Shown: in pieces, positions 15,802 through 45,631 of the stretch
How positions within the stretch are numbered: position 1 is the first letter of the stretch
How the letters are laid out: each line of letters opens with the position of its first letter
Assembly (NCBI GenBank): GCA_902763865.1
Contig: CACWTR010000013.1
Location: 1 to 52,198 of the forward strand
Length of the DNA stretch: 52,198 nt
From: an uncultured Bacteroidales bacterium
GTDB lineage: Bacteria; Bacteroidota; Bacteroidia; Bacteroidales; Bacteroidaceae
Reading direction: 5' to 3'
The notes under the pieces: generated by a model
What the model saw: only the letters and a program-made list of their open reading frames with translations
Told to the model about the DNA's origin: nothing
The model's database searches: none
Position numbers and translations under genes: made by a program

Positions 15802-15881
15802 AAGTTCGTGGACTTATGGCGATAAGTACACGTACTTACCGTCATAAGTACTGGGAGTTTTGACGGGAACTGCATGAAGTT
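15802..15881. repeat. Four-unit palindrome array, AAGT...ACTT type, 22-bp period
   Basis: Units AAGTTCGTGGACTT (15802), AAGTACACGTACTT (15824), AAGTACTGGGAGTT (15846) and AACTGCATGAAGTT (15868) start exactly 22 bp apart, each an imperfect 14-bp palindrome, with 8-nt linkers. Half-units 1 and 3 also pair around unit 2 as a longer inverted repeat (15812-15849). It lies between convergent genes. Confidence 0.75.
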
Positions 15882-15955
15882 GGGTCGGAGGCACCGTTGT
15901 CTTGTCGCTTTTGATGTCAAGAGTTTTCTGTCCATAACACAGTCTGCCTGACTGG

Positions 15956-16807
15956 TCAGCGCACCTCAAGGAACTGCTCTATCTGGGGCAACATCGTCTC
16001 GCCTGCCTGGCGGCCCATCGCATAGACGCGGCGCATCTTGGCCTCGTTCTGTTCGGTGCGGCCAATGGGCAGCGTGTCCTGCGGATAGATGAGCAGGATG
16101 TTTCCCCGTCGCTCCTGTTCCGCGAGGTAGGTCAACTCGTCGTTGTACATCAGGTGACGGCGACTCATGGCACGGACGATGGCAGGATAGCGGCGCATGA
16201 AAAGATGGAAGAGGGGCATGAGACGCGTCTTCTTCTTGTAAAAGCCCTTGGGCTGCGTCAGGATGACCATGTTGCGCCCGAAGCCCTGCCCCTGGAAATA
16301 CCGCAGAGGGATGGAGTCGGCAATGCCGCCGTCGAGCAGCAGACGGCCATCGAGCGGGACGGGACGCGAGACAAGCGGCATGGAAGCTGAGGCACGTATC
16401 CAGTCGAAAGCCTCATCGTCCACCTGATCGATGCGGTGATAGACGGGTTCGCCTGTCAAGGCATCTGTACAGACGACATGAAACTCAGTTGGGTCGCTAT
16501 GGAATGCTTCGGCGTCGAAGACATCCAGCTCCTTCGGCAATGTATGGTAGCTGAACTCCGCCCCCACGAGGTCGCCCGTGCGAAGCAGGCAGCGGAGCCC
16601 CATGTAGCGGGGGTCATCCTTGAAGCGTACATTGTAGCGCAGCACACGCCCAGGCTGGTGCGATTTGTAGTTGCAGCCAAACGTCGCACCTGCCGACACG
16701 CCCACGATGCCGTCGAAGCGGACGCCGTGCTCCATCATCACGTCCATCACGCCGGCGGAAAACAAACCGCGCATCCCGCCGCCCTCAAGTACCAGTCCTG
16801 TCTTCAT
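15956..16807 (-). CDS. Patatin-like phospholipase
   Basis: Predicted cytoplasmic serine acyl hydrolase, 283 residues. The start at 16807 is chosen because the protein then begins MKTGLVLEGGGMRGLFSAG, the classic N-terminus of the family; a longer start would include the promoter. The oxyanion loop is GGGMRG, the nucleophile elbow GVSAG, and the catalytic Asp lies in DGGIADS. No signal peptide. Similar to the short bacterial patatins (RssA/YchK group) acting on phospholipids or lysophospholipids; the true substrate is unknown. Its -7 box sits only 8 nt before the ATG. It is transcribed divergently from the first DUF4160/DUF2442 pair. Confidence 0.93.
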   Translation of the reverse strand: MKTGLVLEGGGMRGLFSAGVMDVMMEHGVRFDGIVGVSAGATFGCNYKSHQPGRVLRYNVRFKDDPRYMGLRCLLRTGDLVGAEFSYHTLPKELDVFDAEAFHSDPTEFHVVCTDALTGEPVYHRIDQVDDEAFDWIRASASMPLVSRPVPLDGRLLLDGGIADSIPLRYFQGQGFGRNMVILTQPKGFYKKKTRLMPLFHLFMRRYPAIVRAMSRRHLMYNDELTYLAEQERRGNILLIYPQDTLPIGRTEQNEAKMRRVYAMGRQAGETMLPQIEQFLEVR

Positions 16808-16815
16808 TTGCGCTG

Positions 16816-16823
16816 CAAAGTTA
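16816..16823 (-). promoter_or_regulatory. -7 box of the patatin gene, 8 nt from ATG
   Basis: TAACTTTG on the minus strand, then CAGCGCAA, then the ATG. The transcript is expected to be leaderless or nearly so. The -33 box is weak (GTTG at 16846-16849). Confidence 0.6.
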
Positions 16824-16865
16824 CGTTTTTTTTCGCTTCCCCACACAACTTTTCCCCTTCTTTTC

Positions 16866-16896
16866 TTTGTCGTTCCCTCAGTTTTTCATAACTTTG
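16866..16896 (+). promoter_or_regulatory. Promoter of the first DUF4160/DUF2442 pair
   Basis: TTTG (16866-16869), 19-bp spacer, TAACTTTG (16889-16896). The -33 region TTTTCTTTGT is shared with the promoter of the second pair. Confidence 0.7.
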
Positions 16897-16924
16897 CAGT
16901 GTGTTTTCCCTTGGAATGGGATGC

Positions 16925-17248
16925 ATGAAGCTTTTAAGTATAAATACGGTGCCTAAAATTCTGCTATACATTACTGCCAAAGTCATCTGGAACTTCCTTT
17001 TCTGGAACACGGACTACCATGAGAACAGGGCACATGTCCATGTCGGCAAGCGGAGTACCGAGCATCTCTGCAAAATCTGGTTGGAGCCTAACGTGGAACT
17101 GGCAGACAAAGGCGACTTGACCGATTCGCAAGTCAAGCAAGTCCTTGGCATCGCCGCCGAATACCGCGAAAGGATGCTTCGACAGTGGGAGCAGTTTAAG
17201 CAAGGCAAGCACATCAGAGTTATCAAGGCAAAAAAAACAAAAGGATAG
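16925..17248 (+). CDS. DUF4160 family protein, copy 1
   Basis: Small protein of 107 residues related to DUF4160. The family hallmark (acidic/polar residue, His, then H-x-H-V) is present as YHENRAHVHVG, followed by a C-terminal helix pair ending EYRERMLRQWEQFKQGKHI. Start codon uncertain: ATG at 16925 or 16916; a GTG at 16901 is too near the promoter box. Three bases separate it from the DUF2442 gene, so they form an operon. The family is often found next to DUF2442 and has been suggested to be part of a toxin-antitoxin-like module; activity is unproven. A second, diverged pair is present 8 kb away. Confidence 0.75.
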   Translation: MKLLSINTVPKILLYITAKVIWNFLFWNTDYHENRAHVHVGKRSTEHLCKIWLEPNVELADKGDLTDSQVKQVLGIAAEYRERMLRQWEQFKQGKHIRVIKAKKTKG

Positions 17249-17251
17249 ACT

Positions 17252-17524
17252 ATGTACAAGACGGAAGGATATTGGAATGTGAAGCCGAAAATCAGGCGGC
17301 TCTCTTTTCCTCGTAGGGGTAAGTTCCAAGTTGACCTGTACGACGGGCGCTCCATCGTGATGCCCGTGTCTGCGTTTCCCTCGTTGAAGCGTGTTCCCGT
17401 GAAAGAACGTGAGCACTGGTATCTGATGGGGGGCGGAGTGACTTGGGATTCCTGCTCTGAGGTCATCCACATAGAGCAAATCCTGGGTAACTTCCAGAAC
17501 TATGCCCACGAAAGTGACGAATAG
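17252..17524 (+). CDS. DUF2442 family protein, copy 1
   Basis: Small 90-residue protein. The core FQVDLYDGRSIVMPVSAFP is the expected DUF2442 pattern (a beta-rich segment in which DGR leads to a hydrophobic strand), followed by HWYLMGGGVTWDSCSEVIHIEQIL, the usual end in which a target or operator-binding role is suspected. Starts 3 bp after the DUF4160 stop. Likely the antitoxin-like partner if the pair is a toxin-antitoxin system; that role is inference from pairing only. Confidence 0.8.
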   Translation: MYKTEGYWNVKPKIRRLSFPRRGKFQVDLYDGRSIVMPVSAFPSLKRVPVKEREHWYLMGGGVTWDSCSEVIHIEQILGNFQNYAHESDE

Positions 17525-17760
17525 GCATTGAAGGAAAGCCGCATCCTGCCCGGCACCCGTAGGCAGGACCGTTGAGGCCGTTGCCGCAAGGTGGGCTGCA
17601 AGGCAAAAGGTTTATTTATCCGCATGCGGAAGGAGGCGCTTGTCACCGGACAGAGTGGGCGGTTTGCTTAACCTGCAAAGCTCTTTTAGCATAGAAAGCC
17701 AAATAAATCTTCTTCCTTCTTCCTTAATTCTTAATTATTTGTCGTACCTTTGCGCCCGAA
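17525..17760. other. Intergenic region with small palindromes
   Basis: No gene seen. It contains hairpins CCTGCC...GGCAGG (17545-17567), CCGCATGCGG (17620-17629) and TGTCACCGGACA (17641-17652). The last two are centred 22 bp apart, but a full four-unit array cannot be supported. Confidence 0.4.
17745..17752 (+). promoter_or_regulatory. -7 box of the DEAD-box helicase, 8 nt from ATG
   Basis: TACCTTTG, then CGCCCGAA, then the ATG at 17761. No TTTG box at the usual -33 position. Confidence 0.6.
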
Positions 17761-19761
17761 ATGAAGAACTTTAACGAACTTGGGCTTGCCGAACCTTTGT
17801 TGCAGGCCATCGAAGAGCTGGGCTACGAACGCCCGATGCCCGTGCAGGAGGAAGTGATTCCCTATCTGCTGAGTAATGAAACCGACCTTGTGGCCTTGGC
17901 GCAGACAGGCACCGGCAAGACGGCAGCCTACGGCCTGCCGCTGCTGCAAAAGATAGTCAAGACCAAGACCCCCTCTGACTCACCTCAGACCCTCTCTGAC
18001 TCACCCTTAAAGGGGGAGGATCAGGGGAAGGAAGCCTCCACTTTAAGGGGAGGTTTGGTAGGGTCTGTCATCCTGAGCCCTACGCGCGAGCTGTGCCTGC
18101 AGATTGCCGACGACCTGGAGGGCTTCAGCAAGTACCTGCCCGAGGTGCGCATCCTGGCCGTCTATGGCGGCACGAACATCGAGCCGCAGATTCGCGCCCT
18201 TAGGCACGGGGTTGACATCATCGTGGCTACTCCGGGCCGCCTCATGGACCTGATGAAGCGCGGCGTGGCCGACCTGTCGGGAGTGCAATACGTGGTGCTC
18301 GACGAGGCGGACGAGATGCTATCGATGGGCTTCCAGGAGGACCTCGACAGCATCCTGGCTGGCATCCCGAGCGAGCACCGCACGCTGCTCTTCAGTGCCA
18401 CGATGAGCCGCGAGATAGAACGCATTGCGCAGAACTACCTGACGGATGCCAAGCAGATACAGGTGGGCAGCCGCAACGAGGGAGCCGAGAACGTGAACCA
18501 CATATATTATATGGTACACGCGCGCGACAAGTACTATGCCCTGAAGCGGCTGGTGGATTTCTATCCGCGCATCTATGCCATCATCTTCTGCCGCACGAGG
18601 CTGGAGACGCAGGAGGTGGCCGACAACCTCATCCGCGACGGCTACAATGCCGACGCGCTGCACGGCGACCTCTCGCAGCAGCAGCGCGACCTGACGATGC
18701 AGCGCTTCCGACAGCACCGCATACAGCTTCTCGTGGCAACCGACGTGGCAGCCCGCGGCCTCGACGTTGATGACCTGACGCACGTCATCAACTACGGCAT
18801 GCCGGACGACGTGGAGAACTACACCCACCGCTCCGGACGCACGGGTCGCGCGGGCAAGAAGGGCACCAGCATCTGCATCATCGGCATGCGCGAGCGCTCG
18901 AAGATAAAGCAGGTGGAGAAGGAGATACAGAAGACCTTCGAGCAGGGCAAACTGCCCGAGCCGCGCGACATCTGCACGAAGCAGCTCTACCATGTCATCG
19001 ACGACATAGAGCGCGTCGTGGTCGATGAGGAGGAGATTGCTCCCTTCATGGACGAGGTGCAGAAGCGCTGGGCGTGGCTCGACAAGGACGACCTCATCCG
19101 CCGCGTCCTCTCGCGCGAGTTCGGTCGCTTCCTCCAGTACTATGCCAATGCACCCGAGATAGAGATTCCCGGGAGGGGAGCAGGAAGCAAGGAGCAGGGG
19201 ACAAGGAGCAGGGGACAAGGAGCAAGGGGCAAGGGTTCCCGCGTGGCCGAGGAAGGCTATGTACGCCTCTTCCTGAACGTAGGCAAGATAGACGGCATGT
19301 ATGCCCGCGAGATCATCGGCATGCTGAACAAGAACGTGCAGGGCGACAAGGTGGCCGTCGGGCGCATCGACCTGATGAAGAACTTCTCGTTCATCGAGGT
19401 GAAGCAGGACGACCTGAACCGCGTGCTAAAGGGTTTGAAGCACGGCGTGACGGTGAAAGGCCGCAGCGTGGTGGTCGATGTGGCAACAGAGACCCCCTCT
19501 AACTCCACCGTAAAGGGGGAGAAACCAAACGAGAACTCCCTCCCCTCAAGGGAGGGCAGAGAAGGGTCTGCGAAGAAGAAGGTCCGCCCTTCCCGCGAAG
19601 AGCGCGGCTACACTGCTCCGCGGGGGCGCAAGTACCAGAAGGAGGAATGGATGAAGTTCCTCCACCCCGAAGGACCCACCAAGAAGAGCCGGAAGCTGAT
19701 GGGTGAGATGCCCGACTTCAGCGAGGAAGGCTGGGCAAGAAGAAAACCAAAGAAGAAATAA
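17761..19761 (+). CDS. DEAD-box ATP-dependent RNA helicase with DbpA-like C-terminal domain
   Basis: RNA helicase of the DeaD/CsdA type, 666 residues, likely acting in ribosome assembly or mRNA turnover. Motif I AQTGTGKT (47-54), Ia PTREL (107-111), DEAD (181-184), SAT (212-214), then ARGLD and HRSGRTGRAG in the second RecA domain. A DbpA-type RNA-binding domain (RLFLNVGKIDG...FSFIEV) follows near 505-580. Three foreign-looking inserts interrupt it: residues 69-101 between motifs I and Ia (GC-rich palindrome), about 472-492 before the DbpA domain (nine heptamers), and about 580-605 in the basic tail (GC-rich palindrome). All keep the frame and avoid the motifs. Confidence 0.93.
   Translation: MKNFNELGLAEPLLQAIEELGYERPMPVQEEVIPYLLSNETDLVALAQTGTGKTAAYGLPLLQKIVKTKTPSDSPQTLSDSPLKGEDQGKEASTLRGGLVGSVILSPTRELCLQIADDLEGFSKYLPEVRILAVYGGTNIEPQIRALRHGVDIIVATPGRLMDLMKRGVADLSGVQYVVLDEADEMLSMGFQEDLDSILAGIPSEHRTLLFSATMSREIERIAQNYLTDAKQIQVGSRNEGAENVNHIYYMVHARDKYYALKRLVDFYPRIYAIIFCRTRLETQEVADNLIRDGYNADALHGDLSQQQRDLTMQRFRQHRIQLLVATDVAARGLDVDDLTHVINYGMPDDVENYTHRSGRTGRAGKKGTSICIIGMRERSKIKQVEKEIQKTFEQGKLPEPRDICTKQLYHVIDDIERVVVDEEEIAPFMDEVQKRWAWLDKDDLIRRVLSREFGRFLQYYANAPEIEIPGRGAGSKEQGTRSRGQGARGKGSRVAEEGYVRLFLNVGKIDGMYAREIIGMLNKNVQGDKVAVGRIDLMKNFSFIEVKQDDLNRVLKGLKHGVTVKGRSVVVDVATETPSNSTVKGEKPNENSLPSREGREGSAKKKVRPSREERGYTAPRGRKYQKEEWMKFLHPEGPTKKSRKLMGEMPDFSEEGWARRKPKKK
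17966..18066. repeat. GC-rich palindromic insert 1 in the DEAD-box gene
   Basis: Bounded by AGACCC (17966-17971) and its complement GGGTCT (18061-18066), with inner phrases CTCTGACTCACC repeated and a CCCTTAAAGGGGGAG hairpin. It encodes about 33 residues inserted between helicase motifs I and Ia. Confidence 0.75.
19175..19237. repeat. Nine tandem heptamers in the DEAD-box gene
   Basis: Units GGGGAGC, AGGAAGC, AAGGAGC, AGGGGAC (x2), AAGGAGC (x3 in all), AAGGGGC and AAGGGTT run without gaps; total 63 bp, so the frame is kept. It encodes GAGSKEQGTRSRGQGARGKG. Confidence 0.9.
19490..19568. repeat. GC-rich palindromic insert 2 in the DEAD-box gene
   Basis: CCCCCTCTAACTCCACCGTA is followed by an AAAGGGGGAG block and a CTCCCTCCCCTCAAGGGAGG block. 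It is read in frame in the basic C-terminal tail. Confidence 0.7.
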
Positions 19762-19788
19762 TAACAATCTGAATAATCAGAAAGACCT

Positions 19789-21930: not shown

Positions 21931-21979
21931 ACAGAAGTCACCTCAACAAAAGCCTCCCGACGCAGTGGAAAAGTCATCG

Positions 21980-22101
21980 CGTCACGACATAAAACTATTT
22001 TCACGTCATGAAAATCTTTTTTCACGTCATGAAAATAGATTTTCAAAGCTTGAAAATTAATTTTCACGTCGTGAAAATAGTTTTATGTCACGTTGGCGAA
22101 G
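21980..22101. repeat. Four-unit palindrome array, TTTTCA...TGAAAA type, 21-bp period (copy A)
   Basis: Units start at 21998, 22019, 22040 and 22061: TTTTCACGTCATGAAAA (twice), TTTTCAAAGCTTGAAAA and TTTTCACGTCGTGAAAA. Each is 17 bp with 4-bp linkers (TCTT, TAGA, TTAA), giving an exact 21-bp period. The flanks pair over 20 bp (GACATAAAACTATTTTCACG on the left and its complement on the right), so the whole array is itself an inverted repeat. It lies between the convergent S46 and upp genes. Confidence 0.95.
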
Positions 22102-22103
22102 TT

Positions 22104-22766
22104 TTAGAGCTTCCCTCCGAAAGCTAGGTCACCCGCGTCACCAAGCCCCGGGACGATGTAGCTCTGCTCGTTCAGGACAGGGTCGATGGCAGCACACCAC
22201 AGCTCGGCACCTTCCCATCCGCCAAAGCGCCCGGCAATATGGTCCACACCCTCCTGAGCCGCGATGACACACGCCATGATGAGGCGGCGCGGCTTACCAT
22301 TCCCGAGGAAGGCATCGACAGCCATTTCCAGGCTGTAGCCCTTAGCCAGCATCGGATCAACCAGGATGAGCGTCTTGCCCGTCAGGTCGGGCGAAACCAT
22401 GTACTCCACGTGCACAGCCACCTCGCGACGCTCCTTGTCCTTGAAATAGCGATAGGCACTGACGAAGGCATTCTCCGCACGGTCGAAAACATTGAGGAAC
22501 CCCTGATGCAATGGCAGGCCGGCACGGAAGACGGTAGCCAGCACGATGTCGTCCTTCAGACATTGGCATTTGCACTCCGCCAGCGGCGTCTGCACCGTCA
22601 CCTCCTCATACTTGAGGCTCTTGCTGATTTCGTAAGCCTGAAGCTCGCCGATGCGCTCCAGGTTGCGGCGGAAACGCAGGCGGTCCCGCTGGATGCCTAC
22701 GTCGCGAAGCTCGCTCACATACTGATTAATGATGCCGGGCATCTCACTCAGATTCACTATTTTCAT
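22104..22766 (-). CDS. upp: Uracil phosphoribosyltransferase
   Basis: Salvages uracil with PRPP to UMP; cytoplasmic, 220 residues, close to the family norm. The PRPP-binding loop reads LVDPMLAKGYS, where many homologues have DPMLATGGS, and the C-terminal uracil-binding region ends YIVPGLGDAGDLAFGGK. Starts at the only ATG giving a full N-terminus. It is transcribed away from pckA; a -7 box TACCTTTG lies at 22816-22823. Confidence 0.96.
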   Translation of the reverse strand: MKIVNLSEMPGIINQYVSELRDVGIQRDRLRFRRNLERIGELQAYEISKSLKYEEVTVQTPLAECKCQCLKDDIVLATVFRAGLPLHQGFLNVFDRAENAFVSAYRYFKDKERREVAVHVEYMVSPDLTGKTLILVDPMLAKGYSLEMAVDAFLGNGKPRRLIMACVIAAQEGVDHIAGRFGGWEGAELWCAAIDPVLNEQSYIVPGLGDAGDLAFGGKL

Positions 22767-22815
22767 GGTATTCTGCTAGTTTTCGGAAACACTTGTTTCC
22801 ATGTTAACTTCCCTA

Positions 22816-22823
22816 CAAAGGTA
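22816..22823 (-). promoter_or_regulatory. -7 box of upp
   Basis: TACCTTTG on the minus strand, 49 bases before the ATG. No clear -33 box. Confidence 0.55.
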
Positions 22824-22941
22824 CGAAAAAAATCCACAATCGGGAGCATCTGATGCAGATTTTTTGCAAACTTAGCATTGCAAACAACGAAGCAAAGGAA
22901 AAACTGTTGGCAGTGAACGATGAACTATGGACTTTTTTTCG

Positions 22942-22949
22942 TACCTTTG
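22942..22949 (+). promoter_or_regulatory. -7 box of pckA
   Basis: TACCTTTG with a 55-nt leader to the ATG at 23005. No clear -33 box. Confidence 0.6.
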
Positions 22950-23004
22950 CACCCGCTAATGAAGAAAAGCATATAAAGTTAACTCAATAATAATCATCAA
23001 CAAC

Positions 23005-24618: not shown

Positions 24619-24646
24619 AAGCAACCTCTTATACACACATGCAAGA

Positions 24647-24692
24647 AGAGGGTGCATCCCTTCGCCAATCACGGCGAAGAGGTGCACCCTCT
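24647..24692 (+). terminator. Terminator hairpin after pckA
   Basis: A 20-bp stem with two mismatches (AGAGGGTGCA...TTCGCC pairing with GGCGAA...TGCACCCTCT) and a 6-nt loop AATCAC. An AT-rich tail follows instead of a pure T-run. Confidence 0.8.
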
Positions 24693-24741
24693 ATATTAAA
24701 TAAAATATAATATGTACTGACAAACTTTTTTCTCCCTTTTC

Positions 24742-24772
24742 TTTGTTCGTAAGGAAATAATCCCTAACTTTG
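24742..24772 (+). promoter_or_regulatory. Promoter of the second DUF4160/DUF2442 pair
   Basis: TTTG (24742-24745), 19-bp spacer, TAACTTTG (24765-24772). The phrase TTTTCTTTGT at the -33 box matches the first pair's promoter. Confidence 0.75.
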
Positions 24773-33343: not shown

Positions 33344-33389
33344 GGCGAAGCTGAAACCCTTCCGGAAGGGCAACAGAAACCTTTCCCTA

Positions 33390-33490
33390 CACGTTGCAAA
33401 ACTATTTTCACGTCATGAAAATCTATTTTCATGACGTGAAAATTAATTTTCATGGTTTGAAAATTGATTTTCAAACCATGAAAATAGTTA
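33390..33490. repeat. Four-unit palindrome array, TTTTCA...TGAAAA type, 21-bp period (copy B)
   Basis: Units start at 33405, 33426, 33447 and 33468: TTTTCACGTCATGAAAA, TTTTCATGACGTGAAAA, TTTTCATGGTTTGAAAA, TTTTCAAACCATGAAAA. Unit 2 is the exact reverse complement of unit 1, and unit 4 of unit 3, so the array folds as two perfect 17-bp stems with 4-nt loops (TCTA, TTGA). The centres differ between copies A and B but the TTTTCA/TGAAAA frame and spacing do not. It lies between the convergent rfbB and GH35 genes. Confidence 0.97.
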
Positions 33491-33500
33491 TATGATGCTT

Positions 33501-35939
33501 CTAATACACAAAGACCTTGTAGTCCTTGATGCTTCCCGGTGCGCCCTGCTCGGCTCGGGGAAGGTACTCAAGGGCGGTGACGGTCTGTTCGCTCCCCAGG
33601 TCTATGACGAGCAGATGGGGGCCCGACTGACCGCGTTCCGTCTGCCAGTATGTGCTCTCCTGCAGGTCGAATACCTTGTCGCCGAGGTTGTTGCCGGCCT
33701 CGTCTTCGGAGTTGGCATACTTCGTCTTCCAGGGTTCGCGAGAGAGTCGTTTGCCGTCCTGACCTTGCAGGTAAAGCTCGGCTATGGCGGTACGGTCGCC
33801 CTGCTTCTGCGTGGAGAGGCATTCCAGAGCAAGGTAGCGGCCCTTCTTCTGAGCACCGAACCTAACGGTCTGCCAGCCGTTGCCGGCCTTGAAGCTGCCG
33901 GTAGCGACGGGAGTGGCTGAGTTCAGGTCGGGCTTGTCGCCGATGTTGTTGTGCTTGTTGCTCTTCTCGAGCTGCAGTTTGTTCAGCTCGGGCTCGGCCT
34001 GACCCCAGACGACAGCTTCCTTCGGGCCGACGATGTCGAGGACAATCACCTCGTTCTTACCCTTCTTGAGCCAGCAGCCGGGCACATAGAGCGTCTGCTG
34101 CGGACCTATCGACCAGATGCGGCCCATGGCATGACCGTTCACCCAGACTTGTCCTTTGCCCCACTTTTCGAAGTTGAGGAACGTGTCGCCCACCTTCCGG
34201 AGGTCGAAGTAACCGCGATAGTAGCCACGACCGAAGATGAGGTCTTCGCTGTCCCTGGCATAGCGCATGGTGCGGCCGAGACGCATCATGCTGATGGACT
34301 CGCGAGTGTTAGGCTTCTCCTTCTGCCACTCAAATGCCCTGACAGCTACCTCGTAGTCATCAGGGATGCGCATGTTCTCCCACATCGTCGGGGTATAGAC
34401 AATCTCCGCGCCGTCGATGCCGAAATGTGACTTCACGTTGACCGTGATAGTAGGTTTGCCGACCAGTCCTTTGAAATCCTTGATGGCTCGACCAAAGTTG
34501 ATGCGCCCCATTCCTTCGACAAGTATTTGCAGTTCCTGCCCCCGACTGACAGGTGGCAAGGAGAGCGACTTCTCGTTCTTCACGCGGTCAATCTTGCCGA
34601 TGTACTTGCCGTCGATAAAGACTTGTGCAAAGTCGTGAGCGTCAAGCGTAAGCGTGGCAGTCCAATCCGCTTCTTCTGGCTTCGGAATCTCAGGCAGACG
34701 GGTACTGTAGAGTACAGCACCCCATCCCATGTCCATCTCCTCGAAAGTCTGCGGCATTACTTCGTGCCAACGACCTTCATATCCAAAGTCGAAGCCATTA
34801 TAGAGCGGGGCAAACTCCGTCAACTCGAACTTTGGAACGGTGATGATAGGCATCGGAGCCTTGGGGACGGCGGGCATCTTCTTGCCGTCGTTGTATTTCT
34901 CCATCATCTTGCGCAGTTCCCAAAACTTGGGGGTAGGGAGGCCCCATTCGTTGATGGGGGCGTCGTAGTCATAGGAGGTCACGTCTGGCGCAAAGCCCGG
35001 ACTGTTGGCACCGGCCCAGTGGCCGAAGCTGGTTCCGCCGTGGGTCATGTAGAGCGAGAAAGAGATTCCCTTCGAGAGCATTTCGTCCATGCCCTCCACC
35101 ATGTCCTTGGCGGGACGTGTCTCGTGGCGGGCACCCCACTTGTCGAACCAACCGCTCCAGAACTCGGAGCACATCTTCGGGGCCTTGGGGCGCAGCTCGC
35201 CGAGGCGACGGAACTGCTGGTCGATGTTGGCGCCCGTGCCGAAGTTCATCGTCCAGGTCAGGTCCTCCAGGCCGTTCTTCTCGAAATTGCTCGACCAGTC
35301 GCACTGGAACAGCTCAAGCTCCTTGCCGTAGATGGAGCGCAGGCAGTCGCGAATCTCGCTGACGTAGGGTTTGTCCTCGCCATAGGAGCCGTACTCGTTC
35401 TCCACCTGCACCATGATGATGGGGCCGCCGTTCTGTATGGTCAGAGGCTTCAGCTGCTCGCCCACCTTCTCCTCGAAGATTTTCACGCGCTCCATGAAGT
35501 AGGGGTCGCGCTCGCGCAGACGGATGTCCTTCTTCTTGAGCAACCACCAGGGTAGGCCGCCCATCTCCCATTCGGCGCAGACGTACGGACCGGGACGCAC
35601 GATGACGTACATGCCGTTCTTCTGAGCCAGGCGGCAGAACTCGGCCACGTCGTTGTTCTCCGTGAAGTCGAACACGCCCTCTTGTTGCTCGTGTATGTTC
35701 CAGAAGATGTAGATGCAGACGGCATTCATGCCCAGCGCCTTGCACATCTGGATGCGATGCTCCCAGTAGGGGCGCGGGATGCGGGGATAGTGCACCTCGG
35801 CTGCCTTCACGGTGAAGGGCTGGCCGTTCAGCAGGAAGGTATTCTCTCCGACGGTAAAGGTGCCGGCACTCTGCGCGGCAAAGGCCGTCAGGTTCAACAT
35901 GGCGGCTAAGGTCAGTATAATCAGGTTTCTTCTTCTCAT
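33501..35939 (-). CDS. Beta-galactosidase, glycosyl hydrolase family 35
   Basis: Secreted exo-beta-galactosidase, 812 residues, with a signal peptide (MRRRNLIILTLAAMLNLTAF...). Catalytic (beta/alpha)8 domain at about 28-350; acid/base Glu182 in VENEYGSYG and nucleophile Glu259 in SEFWSGWFDKWG. Two beta-sandwich domains follow (jelly-roll region with VNGHAMGRIW near 660), and a C-terminal discoidin/F5_8-type module (about 690-812, GSFKAGNGWQTVRFG... LLVIDLGSEQTVTALEYLPR) likely binds glycans. It begins 39 bp after the merR-type gene, in the same direction. Confidence 0.95.
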   Translation of the reverse strand: MRRRNLIILTLAAMLNLTAFAAQSAGTFTVGENTFLLNGQPFTVKAAEVHYPRIPRPYWEHRIQMCKALGMNAVCIYIFWNIHEQQEGVFDFTENNDVAEFCRLAQKNGMYVIVRPGPYVCAEWEMGGLPWWLLKKKDIRLRERDPYFMERVKIFEEKVGEQLKPLTIQNGGPIIMVQVENEYGSYGEDKPYVSEIRDCLRSIYGKELELFQCDWSSNFEKNGLEDLTWTMNFGTGANIDQQFRRLGELRPKAPKMCSEFWSGWFDKWGARHETRPAKDMVEGMDEMLSKGISFSLYMTHGGTSFGHWAGANSPGFAPDVTSYDYDAPINEWGLPTPKFWELRKMMEKYNDGKKMPAVPKAPMPIITVPKFELTEFAPLYNGFDFGYEGRWHEVMPQTFEEMDMGWGAVLYSTRLPEIPKPEEADWTATLTLDAHDFAQVFIDGKYIGKIDRVKNEKSLSLPPVSRGQELQILVEGMGRINFGRAIKDFKGLVGKPTITVNVKSHFGIDGAEIVYTPTMWENMRIPDDYEVAVRAFEWQKEKPNTRESISMMRLGRTMRYARDSEDLIFGRGYYRGYFDLRKVGDTFLNFEKWGKGQVWVNGHAMGRIWSIGPQQTLYVPGCWLKKGKNEVIVLDIVGPKEAVVWGQAEPELNKLQLEKSNKHNNIGDKPDLNSATPVATGSFKAGNGWQTVRFGAQKKGRYLALECLSTQKQGDRTAIAELYLQGQDGKRLSREPWKTKYANSEDEAGNNLGDKVFDLQESTYWQTERGQSGPHLLVIDLGSEQTVTALEYLPRAEQGAPGSIKDYKVFVY

Positions 35940-39261: not shown

Positions 39262-39607
39262 AGCAGCCAGCACAAGAAGGCTTACTCCTATACCATTATA
39301 TATAATATAACAACGGATTCCACAGATTCGACGGATTCGAAACATACTGCTGTTCAGTATCTCAGTTAATCCGCCAGTCTGTGAAATCCGTTGTCGTCTG
39401 TTGCGCTCATTTATGCTTTTGGCATTCTTTCGGATTGGAAAGAATGTTGAGCCTGTTCTGTTAGCCAACTGTTACTTCAGTTACTGCATTTGCTGACTGA
39501 GACTCGAGCTTCACTCGTCGAAAAACACATGGTGAAAACATGGAAATATGCACAGAATTTTATTCCTTACCTTCCAAGGGATTTGCCGTGAAACTTCGTG
39601 ATGAGAC
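39262..39607. other. Convergent intergenic region with large hairpin
   Basis: No gene seen between alaS and the convergent DUF4249 gene. Besides the inverted repeat at 39311-39393 there is a small hairpin ATTCTTTC...GAAAGAAT (39424-39445) and AACTG...CAGTT (39467-39482). The rest shows nothing recognisable. Confidence 0.6.
39311..39393. repeat. Near-perfect 26-bp inverted repeat of CAACGGATT type
   Basis: The left arm (39311-39337, CAACGGATTCCACAGATTCG...) and right arm (39368-39393, ending GTGAAATCCGTTG) are complementary apart from a few positions. A smaller hairpin ATACTG...CAGTAT sits in the loop. The AATCCGT phrase recurs at 15525. Confidence 0.85.
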
Positions 39608-40465
39608 TCACTTTGCATCGCGCACGTCGGCGTACCGGAAGACGATGGTGTCGGCATGGGTGACGCTGGCTGCCATGAAGTAACCCAGGCAGGGGTCGCC
39701 CTTGATGTTGCCAATGGGGTTGGCTCCGTTTCTCTGTCCCGTGCTCAGCGAGCGGAGGTAGTCGAAGGTCGGCTGGTCAATGACCATTAGGCGCATGGTG
39801 ATGGTGTCGCCCTCGTATAGGATTTTGTCCCAGTTGTCCTTGTCGTCCTCCGTTGCAACCTTCTCGCTCATGCACATCACGTCGCGGAAGACACGTCCCG
39901 GGGGGCATCCGCGGTCATCGAAGACATTCCATCGATAGGCATCGTGGGTGGTCTTCTCGGCAAAGTGCGGATGATGGTACGTGCGGTCCAGGCGGTACCA
40001 GTAGTGGTTGCGCACATCGGGCTGCGGGTCGGTGGCCCACAGCTCATAGACCAGCGTGCGTTCCTGGTTGATGGGCTGCCAGAGGAACTCAGCCGAGAGC
40101 AGCGGTGCCGGCGGGTACATGAAGGAGGTGGCTTCGTAGTGGTGCCCCTCCAGGTCCACCGTCAGGCGGTAGGTGGTCCCGGGCTGACCCTTCAGGGGCG
40201 AGCGGTAGAAGCCCGTGGCCTCGTCGTAGGTCAGATGCTCCTGCAGTCCGTCGGCACTGACGATGACCTGTGCTCCGGGCAGTCCCTTGGGCTTCGCCGC
40301 GTCATAGACGGAGCGCGAGCGCGTGAGGAGGACTTCTGTGCCCTCGTCTGTCACGCGGCCTTCTATCGTCAGGATAGGCTCCACCTCGCGAAAGTCGAAG
40401 TCTATCTCCCTCTTACAGGCAGCCAGTGCCGCTATACATATTATTATATACAGATACTTTCTCAT
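39608..40465 (-). CDS. DUF4249 lipoprotein, TonB-receptor partner
   Basis: 285-residue lipoprotein (lipobox in MRKYLYIIICIAALAAC). The mature N-terminus has a carboxypeptidase-D-like segment (ILTIEGRVTDEGTEVLLTRS, then GAQVIVSADG), then the longer DUF4249 domain. Eight bases separate it from the TonB-dependent receptor, its usual partner, so the two likely form an outer-membrane uptake or surface complex. Ligand unknown. Confidence 0.88.
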   Translation of the reverse strand: MRKYLYIIICIAALAACKREIDFDFREVEPILTIEGRVTDEGTEVLLTRSRSVYDAAKPKGLPGAQVIVSADGLQEHLTYDEATGFYRSPLKGQPGTTYRLTVDLEGHHYEATSFMYPPAPLLSAEFLWQPINQERTLVYELWATDPQPDVRNHYWYRLDRTYHHPHFAEKTTHDAYRWNVFDDRGCPPGRVFRDVMCMSEKVATEDDKDNWDKILYEGDTITMRLMVIDQPTFDYLRSLSTGQRNGANPIGNIKGDPCLGYFMAASVTHADTIVFRYADVRDAK

Positions 40466-40472
40466 GCTCTCA

Positions 40473-42557
40473 TCAGTATTTCAGTGTGAAGGAGACGGAC
40501 GGAATGATGCCGAAGAGCGATGTCTGCTCGACCTTGGTGCCCGTGGGCTTCTCGTCGTCGTTCTTGAATCGGATAACGTAGGGGTTGTAGTGGCAGTAGG
40601 CGTTGTAGATACCGAAGGACCAGATGCGGGTGACACGGCGCAGCTTCTTGGTGTGGGTGGCACTGATGTCCAGGCGGTGATAGGCCGGAGCGCGGTATCC
40701 GTTGCGCTCGGCATAATAGTAGAAGGAGGTGCCATCTACCTCGTATTTCGCGCTGGGGGCAGTCAGTGCCTGTCCTGTATTGTAACGCCATACTGCCGAC
40801 AGTTCCCATGTCGGCGTCAGCCGGTAGATGCCTACGACGGCAATGTCGTGGCGGCGGTCGTTAGCTGCGGTGTACCATCGGCCTTGGTTGATGCCCTCGA
40901 TTTTGTTCTCCGACCACGACAGCGTATATGAGAGCCATCCCGTCAGGCGTCCGGTGTTCTTGTGTGCACAGAGTTCCAGGCCGTAGGCACGTCCTTTGCC
41001 GCCAAGGAGCAGACGTTCAATCTCTATCTCGGAGAATGGTGACTTGCCGTCGCGGTAGTCATAGACGTTGTTGATGTGCTTGTAGTAAGTCTCGGCGGAG
41101 AAGTCGTAGTGTCCTCCGCTTGTGATGCCCGTCCAGCCCAGTGCCACCTGGTCCGCGCGCTCGGGCGAGACGATGTTGCTGGTCATGGTGTAGCGGTCGA
41201 AGGGCATCGACATGGTTCCGGCGCTGATGGCATGTACGTCCTGCGAGGTGCGGCTGTAGCCTACCCTCAGGCTGTTCCTCTCGTTGATGCTCCATTTCAG
41301 GCTGAGTCGCGGTTCCGGTTCGACGTAACTCTTCACGATGCTGCCGCACGAGGGGTTGGTGGTATCGGTGATGTTGCCGTCCGAGTCGATGCTGTAGTAG
41401 GGAGCACCGCCCAGCACGGAGAAATGGTGGAGGCGCAGCCCGGCTGAGACGGTGAGCCACGGGGTCGCCTTCCATTCGTCGCTCACCCACAGTGCCGAGG
41501 TCCAGGCGTTGCGTTTCTCGCGCTGGTGGAGCAGGATGATGTCCCATTCAGCCGACTGCAACTGCAGGAAGGTTGACTCCAGCCCGTAGTTCAGCTGGTG
41601 GCGGGGCAGCGTCAGTATCTGGCGATGGCGCAGCGTGGCATGGCGGATGAATCCTTTCAGCCTGTAATTGAAGCTGAGCATGTCAACGCCGACATCGTTC
41701 GAGAAGTCGCTATAGACGAGCTGCGTGCTGGCATAGAACGACGGACTGAAGGTGTGCAGCCAATTGGCTACTGCCGTGGTGTTGCCCCATCCCATGTCCA
41801 TCAGGTCCTCGAGCCCCATGTTGTCGCGCCCGCGGAAGAAGGACAGCGACAGGTGGTCGCGCGGTGAGAGGCGGAAGTTCAGGCGCAGGTTGACGTCGTA
41901 GAAGTTCATGGTGTTGTTGCGGTACTTCTTCGACATTTTCATGAAGAGGTCGAGATAGGAGCGGCGGCCTGCCATGAAGAATGATGCCCGGTCTCGCTTG
42001 ATGGGGCCTTCGGCCATAATCTTGGCCGACAGCAGGCCGATGGTTCCGCCGAAGTGGTAGTCGTGGAAGTTGCCGGGCCGTGTGGTGGCATCGAACACCG
42101 ACGAGGAGCCGCCGCCCAGATGTGCGGGCACGAGTCCCTTGTAGAGCGAAGCGCCCGACAGGGCATCGTCGTTGAAGGTAGAGAAGAGTCCCATGAGGTG
42201 GCCGGCGTTATAGACGGTGGCACCGTCGAGCAGCATCAGGTTCTGTGCCGCAGTGCCGCCGCGCACCTGATAGCCGCTGGTACCGTCGCTCTCGCTCTTC
42301 ACGCCGGGCAGCAGCTGCAGACTTCTGATGATGTCCCTCTCGCCAAACAGCGACGGCACCTTAGACAGCGTAGTGACATCCACCTTCTCCACGCCTATCT
42401 GCACCTCGTCGATGCGCTTTTGGGGCGAGTGCAAGGTGACAGTCACTTCGCTCAGCGTGTCCCTGCGCACGGTGCCGGACGTCTGTGCGAATGTTGCTGA
42501 GGCCCACAGCAGGAGGGCGAGCCATGTCATTGCCTTTCTTGTTTCCTTTTTTCTCAT
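40473..42557 (-). CDS. TonB-dependent outer-membrane receptor
   Basis: 694 residues from the ATG at 42557 (MRKKETRKAMTWLALLLWASATFAQ signal); longer starts cross the promoter. Plug domain with ERDIIRSLQLLPGVKSESDG and GYQVRGGTAAQNLMLLDGATVYN, then a beta-barrel ending in SVSFTLKY. It has no long N-terminal CarboxypepD domain, unlike SusC-type receptors. Upstream partner of the DUF4249 lipoprotein. Its -7 box TATCTTTG is 8 nt from the ATG, and a CCCGACA/TGTCGGG inverted repeat overlaps the -33 region. Confidence 0.93.
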   Translation of the reverse strand: MRKKETRKAMTWLALLLWASATFAQTSGTVRRDTLSEVTVTLHSPQKRIDEVQIGVEKVDVTTLSKVPSLFGERDIIRSLQLLPGVKSESDGTSGYQVRGGTAAQNLMLLDGATVYNAGHLMGLFSTFNDDALSGASLYKGLVPAHLGGGSSSVFDATTRPGNFHDYHFGGTIGLLSAKIMAEGPIKRDRASFFMAGRRSYLDLFMKMSKKYRNNTMNFYDVNLRLNFRLSPRDHLSLSFFRGRDNMGLEDLMDMGWGNTTAVANWLHTFSPSFYASTQLVYSDFSNDVGVDMLSFNYRLKGFIRHATLRHRQILTLPRHQLNYGLESTFLQLQSAEWDIILLHQREKRNAWTSALWVSDEWKATPWLTVSAGLRLHHFSVLGGAPYYSIDSDGNITDTTNPSCGSIVKSYVEPEPRLSLKWSINERNSLRVGYSRTSQDVHAISAGTMSMPFDRYTMTSNIVSPERADQVALGWTGITSGGHYDFSAETYYKHINNVYDYRDGKSPFSEIEIERLLLGGKGRAYGLELCAHKNTGRLTGWLSYTLSWSENKIEGINQGRWYTAANDRRHDIAVVGIYRLTPTWELSAVWRYNTGQALTAPSAKYEVDGTSFYYYAERNGYRAPAYHRLDISATHTKKLRRVTRIWSFGIYNAYCHYNPYVIRFKNDDEKPTGTKVEQTSLFGIIPSVSFTLKY

Positions 42558-42565
42558 TTCGCCGG

Positions 42566-42573
42566 CAAAGATA
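42566..42573 (-). promoter_or_regulatory. -7 box of the TonB receptor, 8 nt from ATG
   Basis: TATCTTTG, CCGGCGAA, ATG on the minus strand; the transcript is expected to be almost leaderless. Confidence 0.6.
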
Positions 42574-42582
42574 CGAAGAATT

Positions 42583-42603
42583 CCCGACACTTCCATTGTC
42601 GGG
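42583..42603. promoter_or_regulatory. Inverted repeat CCCGACA-N7-TGTCGGG, candidate operator
   Basis: A perfect 7-bp inverted repeat centred about 20 bp upstream of the -7 box of the TonB receptor, where a repressor would block the polymerase. There is no T-run, so it is not a terminator. Confidence 0.5.
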
Positions 42604-42675
42604 CTGCGGAAATGAGCAGAAATTTGATGGTCTGCTGAAGTGAAAGCCGGGGGCGGCCCTCTGCAGGGGGCGGAA

Positions 42676-42759
42676 AACACCTCGTGAGCTTTCGGGCATA
42701 AGCTCGCGAGCTTATGGGCAACACCTCGTGAGCTTATGGGCAGAAGCTCGTGAGGTGTT
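42676..42759. repeat. Four-unit palindrome array, CTCGTGAG type, 22-bp period
   Basis: CTCGTGAG (42681), CTCGCGAG (42703), CTCGTGAG (42725) and CTCGTGAG (42747) are exactly 22 bp apart. Unit 2 extends to a perfect 18-bp palindrome ATAAGCTCGCGAGCTTAT (42698-42715). Units 1 and 3 share AACACCTCGTGAGCTT; unit 4 is inverted (AAGCTCGTGAGGTGTT). It lies between the divergent TonB-receptor and GH78 genes. Confidence 0.95.
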
Positions 42760-42896
42760 ATCCGTAACTTTGGCGGAGCCGGGTAAAGCGGGAAAGGAGT
42801 CCCCTCCCCCCTCTATATATATAATAATGTATATGGATTTGCCATTTTCTTACATACTTCTGCCACTTTTTCTCTTCTTATTCGGAAGAAAAGTAA

Positions 42897-42904
42897 TATC
42901 TTTG
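42897..42904 (+). promoter_or_regulatory. -7 box of the GH78 gene
   Basis: TATCTTTG, 41 bases before the ATG at 42946. Another TAACTTTG at 42765-42772, just after the palindrome array, could be an alternative start. Confidence 0.5.
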
Positions 42905-42945
42905 CAGACGGAATACCTCATTACTAACCAAATTATCTCACAAAC

Positions 42946-45537
42946 ATGAAAGCAAGCAGAAACCTAATGACCGGAATGGCAATGGCCATTGCCGCACTGA
43001 CGGCGGGATGCAGCAGCAGCTCTCAAAGTGCAGGACAGCGTACCGCAGCCCTCGACGATGCCGCATGGGAAGCATCGCAGTGGATTTCCGTAGTGGATGC
43101 CCCCGTAGTGGAGGGACGCATTGACAACATCGAGAAGGAACTGGCTGCCGACGGAGCGAGCTGGTTCGCCTGGACCAAGGCCAACGACAAAAGCGTGAAG
43201 AAGGCCGTCTGGATGACCACCGGCCTCGGCGTCTATGAGCTCTACGTCAACGGTAAACTCGTGGGCGAGGAAGTCCTCAAGCCGGGCTTCACTCACCACG
43301 ACAAGACGAAGCGCTCGTTCACCTACGACATCACCGATGCCTTCAACCTGGGCAGCGGCGCAGAGAACCAGCTGGCCGCACAGGTTACGCCGGGATGGTG
43401 GGCCGACAAAATTGTCACGCCCTGGGGCAACGAGGGCATGATAGGCCGCAAGTGCGCCTTCCGCAGTGTGCTGCAGCTGACCTATTCCGACGGCACGACG
43501 GAGTGCTTCGGCACGGACACCGAGACGTGGAAGGCTGGCATAGCCGGCCCCGTGAAGCACGCCGGCATCTTCGACGGCGAGACCTACGATGCCCGCGAAC
43601 CCTTAGGATTTGAGACACCGGAGAAGCTCACCACGCCCGAAGTGAACACCGAGTTCAAGGGCGAAATTCTGCCGTCCGAGGGTGCAGAAGTCTATCTGCG
43701 CACCGACCTTGCCCTCAATCCCGTGGAAGCCTACACATGGGAAGGCGTGGAGGGCGCCAAGGAAGAGGAGGATGCCAAGGAGTTCGGCAAGGTCATCGTA
43801 AAGGAGACGTTTGCCCCCGGCACGCCCATGACGGTAAAGCCCGGACAGACACTCGTCGTGGATTTCGGCCAGAACTGTGCCGCCGTTCCCTCATTCGTTT
43901 TCAAAGCCGCAGAGGGCACTGTGCTCACCTGTCTGCCCGGCGAACTGCTGAACGACGGCAACGGAGCCCGCAAGCGCGGCATGGACGGACCCGAGGGCAG
44001 TGTGCACCGCGACAACTTGCGCCAGGGTAGCAATGCCATGCGACTGGTCTATACCTTCAAGGGTGAGGAAGGACAGAGCGAGAAGTTCTGCCCCCGCTGC
44101 ACCTTCTTCGGCTACCGCTTCGTCTCCATCACAGCCACCGACGAAGTGACCATCCAGAGCCTGCAGTCCGTGCCCGTCACCTCCATTGCCAAGAACCTCG
44201 AGACGGGTGTCATCAGCACCGGCGACAGCCTCATCAACAAACTCATCTCGAACACCATCTGGGGCCAGCGCTCCAACTACCTGAGCGTTCCCACCGACTG
44301 CCCGCAGCGCAACGAGCGCCTGGGCTGGACAGCCGACACGCAGGTATTCACCGAGACGGGCACCTTCTTCGCCAACACCGACGGCTTCTTCCACAAGTGG
44401 ATGCGCGACATGCGCGACTCGCAGGGCGAGCTCGGCGGCTTCCCCGGCGTGGCGCCACTGGCACAGTACGGTGCCGAGAAGATGCGACTGGGCTGGACCG
44501 ACGCCGGAATCATCGTGCCCTGGACCATCTGGAAGCAGTTCGGCGACACAGACATCATTGCCGAAAACTGGGAGTCGATGAACCTCTTCATGAGCCACAT
44601 CTACGAGACGAAGTACGACCACAATGCGCTGCTCTCAGAGAACGGCAACTACCAATGGGCCGACTGGCTGAGCTACGAACCCTTGGAGAGCTGCAGCGGA
44701 CGCGGCTTCGCCGACGGCCAGCCCCTGCCCGAAGCCGTGCAGTACTGGAACTACCTGAGCGCCTGCTATTGGGTCATCGACGCCGACATGATGGCTGACA
44801 TGGCTGCCGCCACCGGTCGCGACGCAGCTCCCTACCGCAAGATGGCCGGGGAGGGACGCGACTACATCAAGCAGAACTTCATCAACGAGGACGGCACCTT
44901 CCGCACCGAAATCCTCAACACGATGCAGACACCCGCACTCTTCGCCCTGAAGACAGGCGTCGTAGAGGGCGAGGCACGCCAGGGCACCATCGCCCGCCTG
45001 CGCCAGAACTTTGCCGACCACGACAACTGCCTGCAGACAGGTTTCCTCGGCACCTCCATCCTCATGCAGACGCTCACCGACAACGGCATGAGCGACATCG
45101 CCTATGAAGTGCTCTTCCAGCACAAGAATCCCTCCTGGCTCTACTCTATCGACAACGGTGCAACAACCATCTGGGAGCGCTGGAACAGCTACATGGTCGA
45201 TGAAGGCATGGGACCGCAGGGCATGAACTCCTTCAACCATTACGCCTACGGTGCCGTCTGCCAGTGGATATGGGAGACCGTGGCAGGCATCGCTGCCGAC
45301 ACCGCAGAACCCGGCTTCCGCCACATCATCATGCGCCCCGTGCCCGACAAGCGCCTGGGCCACCTCGACGCAGAGTTCCAGTCGGCAGCCGGACTCATCA
45401 AGAGCAGCTGGAAGTATGAAGGCGAACAGTGGACCTGGACCTTCACCATTCCCGAAGGCGCAACGGCCACCGTCACCCTGCCCGGTGAGACGGAAAGCAA
45501 GGCCTACGGCTCAGGCACTTACACCGTGACGAAATAA
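42946..45537 (+). CDS. Alpha-L-rhamnosidase, glycosyl hydrolase family 78
   Basis: Surface or periplasmic lipoprotein, 863 residues, with a lipobox in the first 25 residues (AIAALTAGC). It inverts alpha-L-rhamnosidic bonds in plant or microbial glycans. Domains: N-terminal beta-sandwich (GVYELYVNGKLVGEEVLKPG), concanavalin-like region, and (alpha/alpha)6 barrel with the signature VPTDCPQRNERLGWTADTQV near 445-465 that holds the general acid Glu. The second half keeps GATTIWERWNSY, and a C-terminal beta domain ends the protein. Ends just before the terminator-array; neighbours are otherwise unrelated. Confidence 0.94.
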   Translation: MKASRNLMTGMAMAIAALTAGCSSSSQSAGQRTAALDDAAWEASQWISVVDAPVVEGRIDNIEKELAADGASWFAWTKANDKSVKKAVWMTTGLGVYELYVNGKLVGEEVLKPGFTHHDKTKRSFTYDITDAFNLGSGAENQLAAQVTPGWWADKIVTPWGNEGMIGRKCAFRSVLQLTYSDGTTECFGTDTETWKAGIAGPVKHAGIFDGETYDAREPLGFETPEKLTTPEVNTEFKGEILPSEGAEVYLRTDLALNPVEAYTWEGVEGAKEEEDAKEFGKVIVKETFAPGTPMTVKPGQTLVVDFGQNCAAVPSFVFKAAEGTVLTCLPGELLNDGNGARKRGMDGPEGSVHRDNLRQGSNAMRLVYTFKGEEGQSEKFCPRCTFFGYRFVSITATDEVTIQSLQSVPVTSIAKNLETGVISTGDSLINKLISNTIWGQRSNYLSVPTDCPQRNERLGWTADTQVFTETGTFFANTDGFFHKWMRDMRDSQGELGGFPGVAPLAQYGAEKMRLGWTDAGIIVPWTIWKQFGDTDIIAENWESMNLFMSHIYETKYDHNALLSENGNYQWADWLSYEPLESCSGRGFADGQPLPEAVQYWNYLSACYWVIDADMMADMAAATGRDAAPYRKMAGEGRDYIKQNFINEDGTFRTEILNTMQTPALFALKTGVVEGEARQGTIARLRQNFADHDNCLQTGFLGTSILMQTLTDNGMSDIAYEVLFQHKNPSWLYSIDNGATTIWERWNSYMVDEGMGPQGMNSFNHYAYGAVCQWIWETVAGIAADTAEPGFRHIIMRPVPDKRLGHLDAEFQSAAGLIKSSWKYEGEQWTWTFTIPEGATATVTLPGETESKAYGSGTYTVTK

Positions 45538-45544
45538 ACAGAAA

Positions 45545-45631
45545 AACACGGCATGCCGCATCGGACAAATCGGCATGCCGTGTTAACCAAATCGGCGTGT
45601 CGCGTCAGTCAACGCAGCACGCCGATTTTTG
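45545..45631. terminator. Four-unit palindrome array, CGGCATGCCG type, 22-bp period, ending as a terminator
   Basis: Cores CGGCATGCCG (45549), CGGCATGCCG (45571), CGGCGTGTCG (45593) and CAGCACGCCG (45615) are exactly 22 bp apart. Units 1 and 2 form a 14-bp stem AACACGGCATGCCG / CGGCATGCCGTGTT. Units 3 and 4 form AAATCGGCGTG / CACGCCGATTT, followed by TT, so the second hairpin works as an intrinsic terminator for GH78. It lies between convergent genes. Confidence 0.9.

Follow-up and report, generated by a model that had tools for sequence, protein, structure and literature searches.

Arrays of four palindromes at an exact 21-bp spacing are dispersed through a Bacteroidales genome, and their geometry recurs with other sequences in the genus

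What is kept in a row of short palindromes when its letters are not? The question is raised by a 52,198-bp stretch of DNA (contig C13, positions 1-52198; hereafter the window) from the 2.91-Mb genome, in 75 contigs, of an uncultured Bacteroidales bacterium. The initial annotation had described five intergenic arrays in it, numbered 1 to 5 here from left to right, as exactly four palindromes each, spaced by 21 or 22 bp, with a common architecture and unrelated sequences. It had proposed either a structural element kept for its spacing (protein dimers bound to a single face of the DNA, bidirectional termination or RNA processing) or a mobile element family evolving by paired changes in stem halves. 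Arrays 2 and 3 belong to one family, called class A here (the 21-bp family), which was traced by pattern searches; the geometry was scanned for separately, without regard to sequence.

A class A pair was defined as two TTTTCA-N5-TGAAAA units separated by 4 bases, and the reversed pattern served as the control. The pair pattern matched 205 places in the genome and the four-unit pattern 65 arrays, with 0 matches for either control. The 65 arrays account for 195 (65 × 3) of the 205 unit pairs, and because none of the 50 arrays listed among the 65 overlaps another, there is no five-unit array among these 50. A sample of 452,198 bases (the window and 20 further stretches) was also listed with a tolerance of 2 mismatches per unit and one perfect unit required. 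There, 16 of 19 class A places consisted of four units at 21, 21 and 21 bp with 0 mismatches, and the other three were one single unit, one two-unit place and one place cut by a contig end. Array density in this sample is biased upward, since the stretches came from contigs in the match listing and some were chosen for their arrays. A pattern shifted by half a unit (at most 2 mismatches) gave 88 places, was the source of six fetched arrays, and left the unit count unchanged. Among relatives, 19 of the 21 arrays shown from genomes G101, G105, G109, G068 and G074 had four units at 21 bp, some with the half-site variants TTATCA or TTTCCA; two G109 arrays gave two units at the stringency used. Copy number, unit number and spacing of class A are thereby established. 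"Exactly four" holds for this family, but not elsewhere, where chain lengths or counts run from 3 to 8.

Arrays 2 and 3 proved to be as described, each with four units at 21, 21 and 21 bp. The cores of array 2 are CGTCA, CGTCA, AAGCT and CGTCG with linkers TCTT, TAGA and TTAA; those of array 3 are CGTCA, TGACG, TGGTT and AACCA with linkers TCTA, TTAA and TTGA. Their chain scores were 22.1 and 21.9, and none of 20 shuffled windows reached 11 at period 21 or 22. These shuffles and the pattern controls of 0 refute chance or low complexity for the two arrays. A chance artefact could apply to array 1 and has nothing in its favor in the 21-bp family; as a general account we consider its probability negligible.

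Class A is unevenly distributed. The exact two-unit pattern was found in 1 of 61 genomes, namely this one. With one mismatch, 8 of 139 genus genomes matched, with 137 places in this genome, 34 in G101, and 1-8 in each of six others. Three exact units were found in two contigs among one genome each of 84,980 species, a set from which very near records were possibly left out. The named records carrying class A are metagenome-assembled genomes (RGIG7992 'Bacteroidaceae bacterium' and UBA3734). A phage origin was rejected, as a relaxed pattern had 0 matches in viral contigs, and four array strings of 17-19 bases had no mention in the open-licence PubMed Central (PMC) literature. A separate observation concerns C25:35592-35946 in this genome (L181) and a locus of UBA3734 (L067), which are apparently one locus, with 55/59 and 276/320 flank columns identical. 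It has two units in this genome and more, plus an N gap, in UBA3734, which reflects either real variation or assembly collapse.

The geometry was scanned without sequence in two ways. One scan took three palindromes at equal centre spacing, over periods of 12-40, and compared them with five shuffles. In the 452-kb sample, it returned 16 triplets at 21 bp and 8 at 22 bp, where the shuffles gave 0.6 each; all other periods had 0-3, and at least one 22-bp match looks coding. A second scorer, which required chains of at least 3 units at score 12, gave 29 chains against 1 in one shuffle. Applied to 1,245,100 bases from 11 relatives, a set partly picked for known arrays (G101, some of G074, and G075), it gave 44 chains, of which 16 were at 21 bp, 21 at 22 bp and 7 elsewhere, against 5 in the shuffle. 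In the array-blind part of this set (40 stretches, 800 kb), 12 of 15 chains, some of them weak, were at 21 or 22 bp, against 4 chains in the shuffle; the array-blind stretches of G030 and G077 had no chains. The scan thus covers samples of 12 genus genomes, this one included, out of 139. In other Bacteroidales families (249,107 bases, 15 loci, 10 genomes), the scan gave 6 chains compared with 5 in three shuffles, and none of the 6 had a spacing of 21 or 22 bp.

The units behind these peaks differ in sequence. In G075 they are TACATGTA-centred or CCGCRYGCGG, in G101 TTACAC..GTGTAA, and in G016 TGGCAC..GTGCCA, AAGACGCGCGTCTT and TTCGATGCGCATCGAA; G026 has ATCCACACGTGGAT, G015 CGACCGGTCG and G008 TAACGTGTTA. 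Outside class A, four units are the commonest number by eye, with a range of 3 to 8. Hence, the description as architecture rather than sequence is confirmed by peaks at 21/22 bp in this genome and in relatives with other unit sequences, which suggests that geometry rather than letters is conserved. As a side observation, this genome has a further family of contiguous 22-bp palindromes (TTGCTTCATCGCGATGAAGCAA, TTGCACGTACATGTACGTGCAA), mostly of three units and sometimes mixed within an array; its counterpart in G075 has three units and is TACATGTA-centred.

The class A cassette is about 94 bp long. Between an AAARYTA edge and its mirror, it contains four imperfect inverted repeats of 17 bp, set exactly 21 bp apart. 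Among 56 arrays of this genome, AAARYTA precedes TTTTCA on 53 left edges and its mirror is found on 48 right edges, i.e., terminal inverted repeats are present. Direct repeats of about 22 bp, one to four in number, bracket the core; they point inward and have an A-tract at their head, as judged by eye in 11 elements and by Tandem Repeats Finder in L130. A profile of these flanks matched 52 times near cores and 154 times elsewhere, against 165 in reversed sequence; with no excess away from cores, the flank repeats were rejected as pre-existing targets. Within the core, 27 of 80 columns are variable across the 56 arrays, and 48 of the other 53 are held constant by the search pattern itself; the half-sites also showed no change in the sample listing, despite its mismatch tolerance, and are regarded as fixed. 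The unit cores are drawn from a small set, with two C-type and two A-type units in 46 of 56 arrays and three plus one in the remaining 10. This composition perhaps reflects common descent, because 45 of 56 arrays fall into one single-link cluster. The A-tracts sum in phase over 10.25-10.5 bp, with a phase vector of 6.72 of 9.8 tracts at 10.5 bp compared with 1.28 in shuffled sequence and 2.77 for random phases. By this simple model phasing is established, and class A DNA is predicted to be bent.

Our preferred explanation, held tentatively and with less than even confidence, is that class A, a non-coding DNA element dispersed in many copies, serves as a protein-binding and bending array. Its eight TGAAAAT half-sites would lie in alternating orientation along one helix face, and a dimeric DNA-binding protein would most likely fill the four sites jointly to give one bent complex of fixed size. 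The fixed size of the bound complex is proposed as the reason why unit number and spacing are constant while cores and linkers vary. The 22-bp A-tract repeats would bracket the bent core on both sides, and the core would be copied to new places via transposition or gene conversion between copies. Protein dimers on one face are thus the option that we think the data favor; the binding itself, like the bending or chromosome-organising role and the copying route, we infer.

A tally of the half-sites points in the same direction. Paired changes in stem halves were not found within species, as 0 of 122 C-type units in this genome had both halves changed (22.5 expected; shuffle minimum 12) and 1 of 96 units in G101 did (9.3 expected; shuffle minimum 2), the latter not being a compensated form. 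With this single exception, no unit in these tallies has both halves weakened. Neither TG..CA nor AG..CT, the compensated forms, was seen in the arrays of this genome, nor was TTATCA..TGATAA in G101. Folding of the whole array as a dyad (unit 1 with 4, unit 2 with 3) was rejected as well, because pairing was below the shuffled expectation. We therefore weigh the data towards half-site recognition in double-stranded DNA over an RNA hairpin, with the caveat of shared descent.

Several observations weigh against protein binding and bending. AG..CT is the top inner pair in G101 (29 of 96 units) and AA..TT is the top one among the A-type units of this genome, which is likely a paired change between the two species. 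Because the inner pair looks compensated between species, our confidence in protein binding is lowered, and the idea of paired stem-half changes, which fails within species, apparently applies between them. The inner positions pair (Watson-Crick plus wobble) in 407 of 448 cases within units compared with 344 in shuffled units. The left half of unit 1 and the right half of unit 2, and likewise units 3 and 4, pair above the shuffled level, as a hairpin would also predict. Two perfect hairpins result when array 3 is folded. A few founders may account for both the one-weak-half rule and the unit composition (45 of 56 arrays in one cluster), the predicted bend is a simple phase sum, and class A is enriched in convergent regions.

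The copies of class A bear on how it may spread. Among 11 arrays of this genome, seven pairs have identical 80-bp cores. Flank identity beyond 30 bp in these seven pairs is 30-42%, compared with about 30% in unrelated pairs, and in the four pairs printed identity ends within about 10 bp outside the core, a boundary sharp enough to be taken as established. The core of array 2 is identical to that of G000:C31:17146, and the two have in common the linker TCTT, which occurs in no other of the 56 arrays. Since identical cores sit in unrelated flanks, the core itself was copied. Orthologous sites differ between species. Three of the 56 arrays were comparable on both flanks, and none of them has class A at the orthologous site in a relative. 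At the site of array 2 (21998), G075 has four CCGCRYGCGG units at 22 bp ending in a T-tract beside a stop, and G101 has a ATTCATAATTC inverted repeat (C52, about 5990-6110, L148). The right flank alone matches L206 to its G101 counterpart L120; here an array is present in both species, with a sequence type particular to each, which fits gene conversion or repeated insertion. Some G101 copies lie within a miniature inverted-repeat transposable element (MITE) with ends CAAATCGGTCATTAGA, seen at L161, L163, L165 and L171 in G101 and on C12, C11, C25 and C54 (L179-L182) in this genome. The MITE is about 150-190 bp long alone and about 350-362 bp with a class A array in its middle; a copy without the core and six bases (L186) is 86 bp shorter than filled copies.

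These data raise the question of whether class A is purely selfish, that is, a REPIN- or MITE-like miniature element whose inverted units are the substrate of a trans-acting transposase and whose geometry persists only because other forms are immobile. We regard this as possible, though doubtful. The uneven and species-limited copy number, the identical cores in unrelated flanks, the lack of class A at the three comparable orthologous sites and the G101 cores inside a MITE all speak for it, as does the position away from gene starts (median 240 bp to the facing start codon, with 5 of 45 under 100, and median 83 bp to the facing stop). The mobile-element option of the initial annotation survives in the copied cores, but not in its within-species stem-half changes. 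Against it, no target duplication was seen by eye in the flanks inspected. The Y1 transposase (PF01797), the sole transposase family searched, matched in 6 of 14 genomes but not in G075, G008, G015, G109 and G068, which are incomplete genomes with arrays of class A or of other families. No class A units were near any of six Y1 loci examined, including one of the two matches in this genome (L189, not C18), which adjoins another repeat; a RAYT/REPIN system was rejected for class A on this ground. Because unrelated sequences have the same geometry, one transposase is not sufficient as an explanation. In our view, it is improbable that the arrays are terminators, or hairpins for RNA processing, at the ends of genes, acting in both directions where genes converge. 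Arrays 2 and 3 fold well as RNA (z -8.0 to -11.3), and T-tracts next to stops are found at the ends of array 5 and of the array that G075 has at the 21998 site. With genes from a codon-usage caller, the 56 class A arrays are in tandem (25), convergent (16) or divergent (10) contexts, inside weak open reading frames on which this placement depends (3), or at edges (2). Convergent arrays make up 16 of 51 placed ones (31%) compared with 19% of the placeable bases in the 452-kb sample (49% tandem, 32% divergent). A multi-species set of 45 arrays, with many of those from this genome repeated, gave 16 convergent, 16 tandem, 11 divergent, 1 inside and 1 at an edge. These counts and the distances indicate mild convergent enrichment with avoidance of promoter regions. 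Four of five arrays between convergent genes is correct within the window, but not as a rule, and the 10 of 51 arrays between divergent genes do not follow gene ends. The stems are nearly all A-T, compensating changes are near-absent within species, and the wobble-forming orientation in tandem contexts (27 to 18) has no clear sense-strand preference.

A further alternative, which we rate as distinctly improbable, is that each array organises a stretch of chromosome as a domain or boundary element, and that arrays are hence kept far apart. For 48 arrays on 23 contigs of this genome, 0 of 25 gaps were below 8.7 kb, with 6.9 expected given the counts per contig and 0 of 5000 simulations as low. 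The closest pair is at least 8.75 kb apart, and four short or cut copies added no nearer gap. The 8.7-kb threshold was set after seeing the data; at 5 kb, there were 0 gaps against 4.1 expected (P 0.008). In G101, none of 9 gaps was below 8.7 kb, where 1.84 would be expected (P 0.12), which agrees without confirming; this count used 29 places on 20 contigs from a possibly incomplete list and excluded 12 further places whose contigs are of unknown length. Recombination between near copies could also delete close pairs, and we treat the avoidance of close pairs as a lead. A broader reading extends to all arrays. In it, a genus-wide class of chromosome elements would be defined by geometry alone (several dyads, four in most cases, at exactly two helical turns), with the sequence swapped per lineage even at an orthologous site, each lineage would have its own fast-changing DNA-binding protein, and the spacing of about 9 kb or more between arrays in this genome would be like that of domain boundaries. 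We think this unlikely as it stands.

Table 1. Coordinates of the arrays in the window, of the class A flanks, and of a further 22-bp family in the same genome (locus:position)
Feature	Position	Strand	Basis or detail
Array 1, about three AAGT..ACTT-type palindromes with 22-bp spacing	15802..15859	.	chain scan, folding
Array 2 left flank, A-tract repeat pointing inward, ends AAAACTA	21968..21997	+	flank profile
Array 2, class A core, four TTTTCA-N5-TGAAAA units at 21 bp	21998..22077	.	pattern search
Array 2 right flank, reverse of left-flank type, begins TAGTTTTATG	22078..22107	-	
Array 3 left flank, A-tract repeat, ends CAAAACTA	33375..33404	+	
Array 3, class A core, four units at 21 bp	33405..33484	.	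pattern search
Array 3 right flank, degenerate (TAGTTATATGATG...)	33485..33514	-	
Array 4, CTCRYGAG palindromes (four, 22-bp spacing), second family of this genome	42681..42754	.	unit starts 42681, 42703, 42725, 42747
Array 5, two GC-rich terminator-like hairpins	45545-45584 and 45589-45628	.	folding, terminator scoring
TTGCTTCATCGCGATGAAGCAA/TTGCACGTACATGTACGTGCAA family	L017:840, L023:8780, L025:9400, L028:7114, L029:11960, L030:14590, L034:19400, L224:1380		

The other three arrays of the window fared unequally (Table 1). Array 4 is present as described, with four palindromes at 22 bp, and sits between divergent genes. Its chain scores are modest, at 9.3 for the segment and 11.0 for the whole-window scan (shuffles gave 0.3 per window at 9 or more and none at 11). 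A chance reading is countered by its family members, on which the case rests: CTCRYGAG units at 22 bp number 5 at L017, 6 at L024, 7 at L022 and, counting one variant, 7 at L189. The palindrome is imperfect, and other members were missed by the chain scans. Since members run from 4 to 7 units, four is not a fixed number in this family. As a side observation, the small Y1 transposase gene at L189 (contig C4 of this genome, about 16.2-19.6 kb) has GCCCTGAAAGGGC / CCCAGGGC repeats on its flanks and lies near a seven-unit CTCACGAG-type array at 22 bp.

Array 1 is marginal as an array. Its 22-bp spacing is correct, but it has about three units rather than four (chain score 10.2; 0.1 expected per shuffled window at period 21/22). 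It can also be drawn as one imperfect hairpin with 18-base arms (15812-15849), and a strict pattern found no relatives in 689,570 bases of this genome. Array 5 did not hold up as a four-unit chain. It has two CGGCATGCCG words 22 bp apart, but no chain of at least 3 units, and is better read as two terminator-like hairpins. It folds into two strong hairpins (-50.5 kcal/mol, z -8.4), each a GC-rich stem followed by a T-tract; the minus-strand site 45562-45545 was scored as terminator-like, and the plus-strand hairpin is followed by T's by eye, outside the terminator score. No Rfam family matched above its gathering score in the window. Elsewhere in it, positions 22913-22987 have numerous scattered matches in G075 and a single one in G101, and are perhaps a common promoter-region sequence.

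How does class A relate to known systems? ArgR boxes are 18-bp palindromes with 21-bp centres, in which palindromes two turns apart are bound by an oligomer. Compared with such operators, class A has dozens of sites, mostly not promoter-proximal, and four sites instead of two. Its closest counterparts among repeat families are REP/BIME, REPIN, MITE and BrickBuilt (see also PMC8040213). Repetitive extragenic palindromic (REP) sequences and bacterial interspersed mosaic elements (BIMEs) are high-copy intergenic palindromic units in small mosaic clusters, present in some species only (PMC3733652). Class A is likewise high-copy, intergenic, dispersed, mosaic and species-limited, but differs in that its units, 17 bp long and built on TGAAAAT half-sites, are fixed at four and lie exactly 21 bp apart on one helical face, and in that 10 of 51 arrays are in divergent regions. 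Its cores often contain CGTC, by eye not as a tag beside the stem. In REPINs, the replicative unit goes beyond a single palindrome, with conserved ends, a variable inside and an extragenic position (PMC3116915). REPINs are doublets in which compensatory changes are common, and a RAYT with matching repeats lies close by, whereas class A has four units, little within-species compensation and no RAYT link at the loci examined. The BrickBuilt MITE of Porphyromonas gingivalis, also in Bacteroidales, is intergenic, with tandem repeats of about two turns between flanks (PMC4596501). It has 1 to 22.8 direct 23-nt repeats, a leader and a tail, and IS5-type ends, in contrast to the near-constant four 21-bp palindromes of different sequence in class A; IS5-like ends were outside the search. 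Hence, we file class A as a kind of dispersed palindromic repeat outside REP/BIME, REPIN, MITE and BrickBuilt.

Dispersed palindromic repeats of bacteria are usually classed by sequence. Here, the spacing is conserved, and in one family the unit number as well, and sequences of one genus that are otherwise unrelated have this geometry in common. Should a protein fill the arrays, a little-studied lineage would have a chromosome-binding system that is new. Should a transposase act on them instead, the arrays would form a miniature element whose four-site substrate is unusual. Under either reading, the geometry rule provides a search that is independent of sequence.

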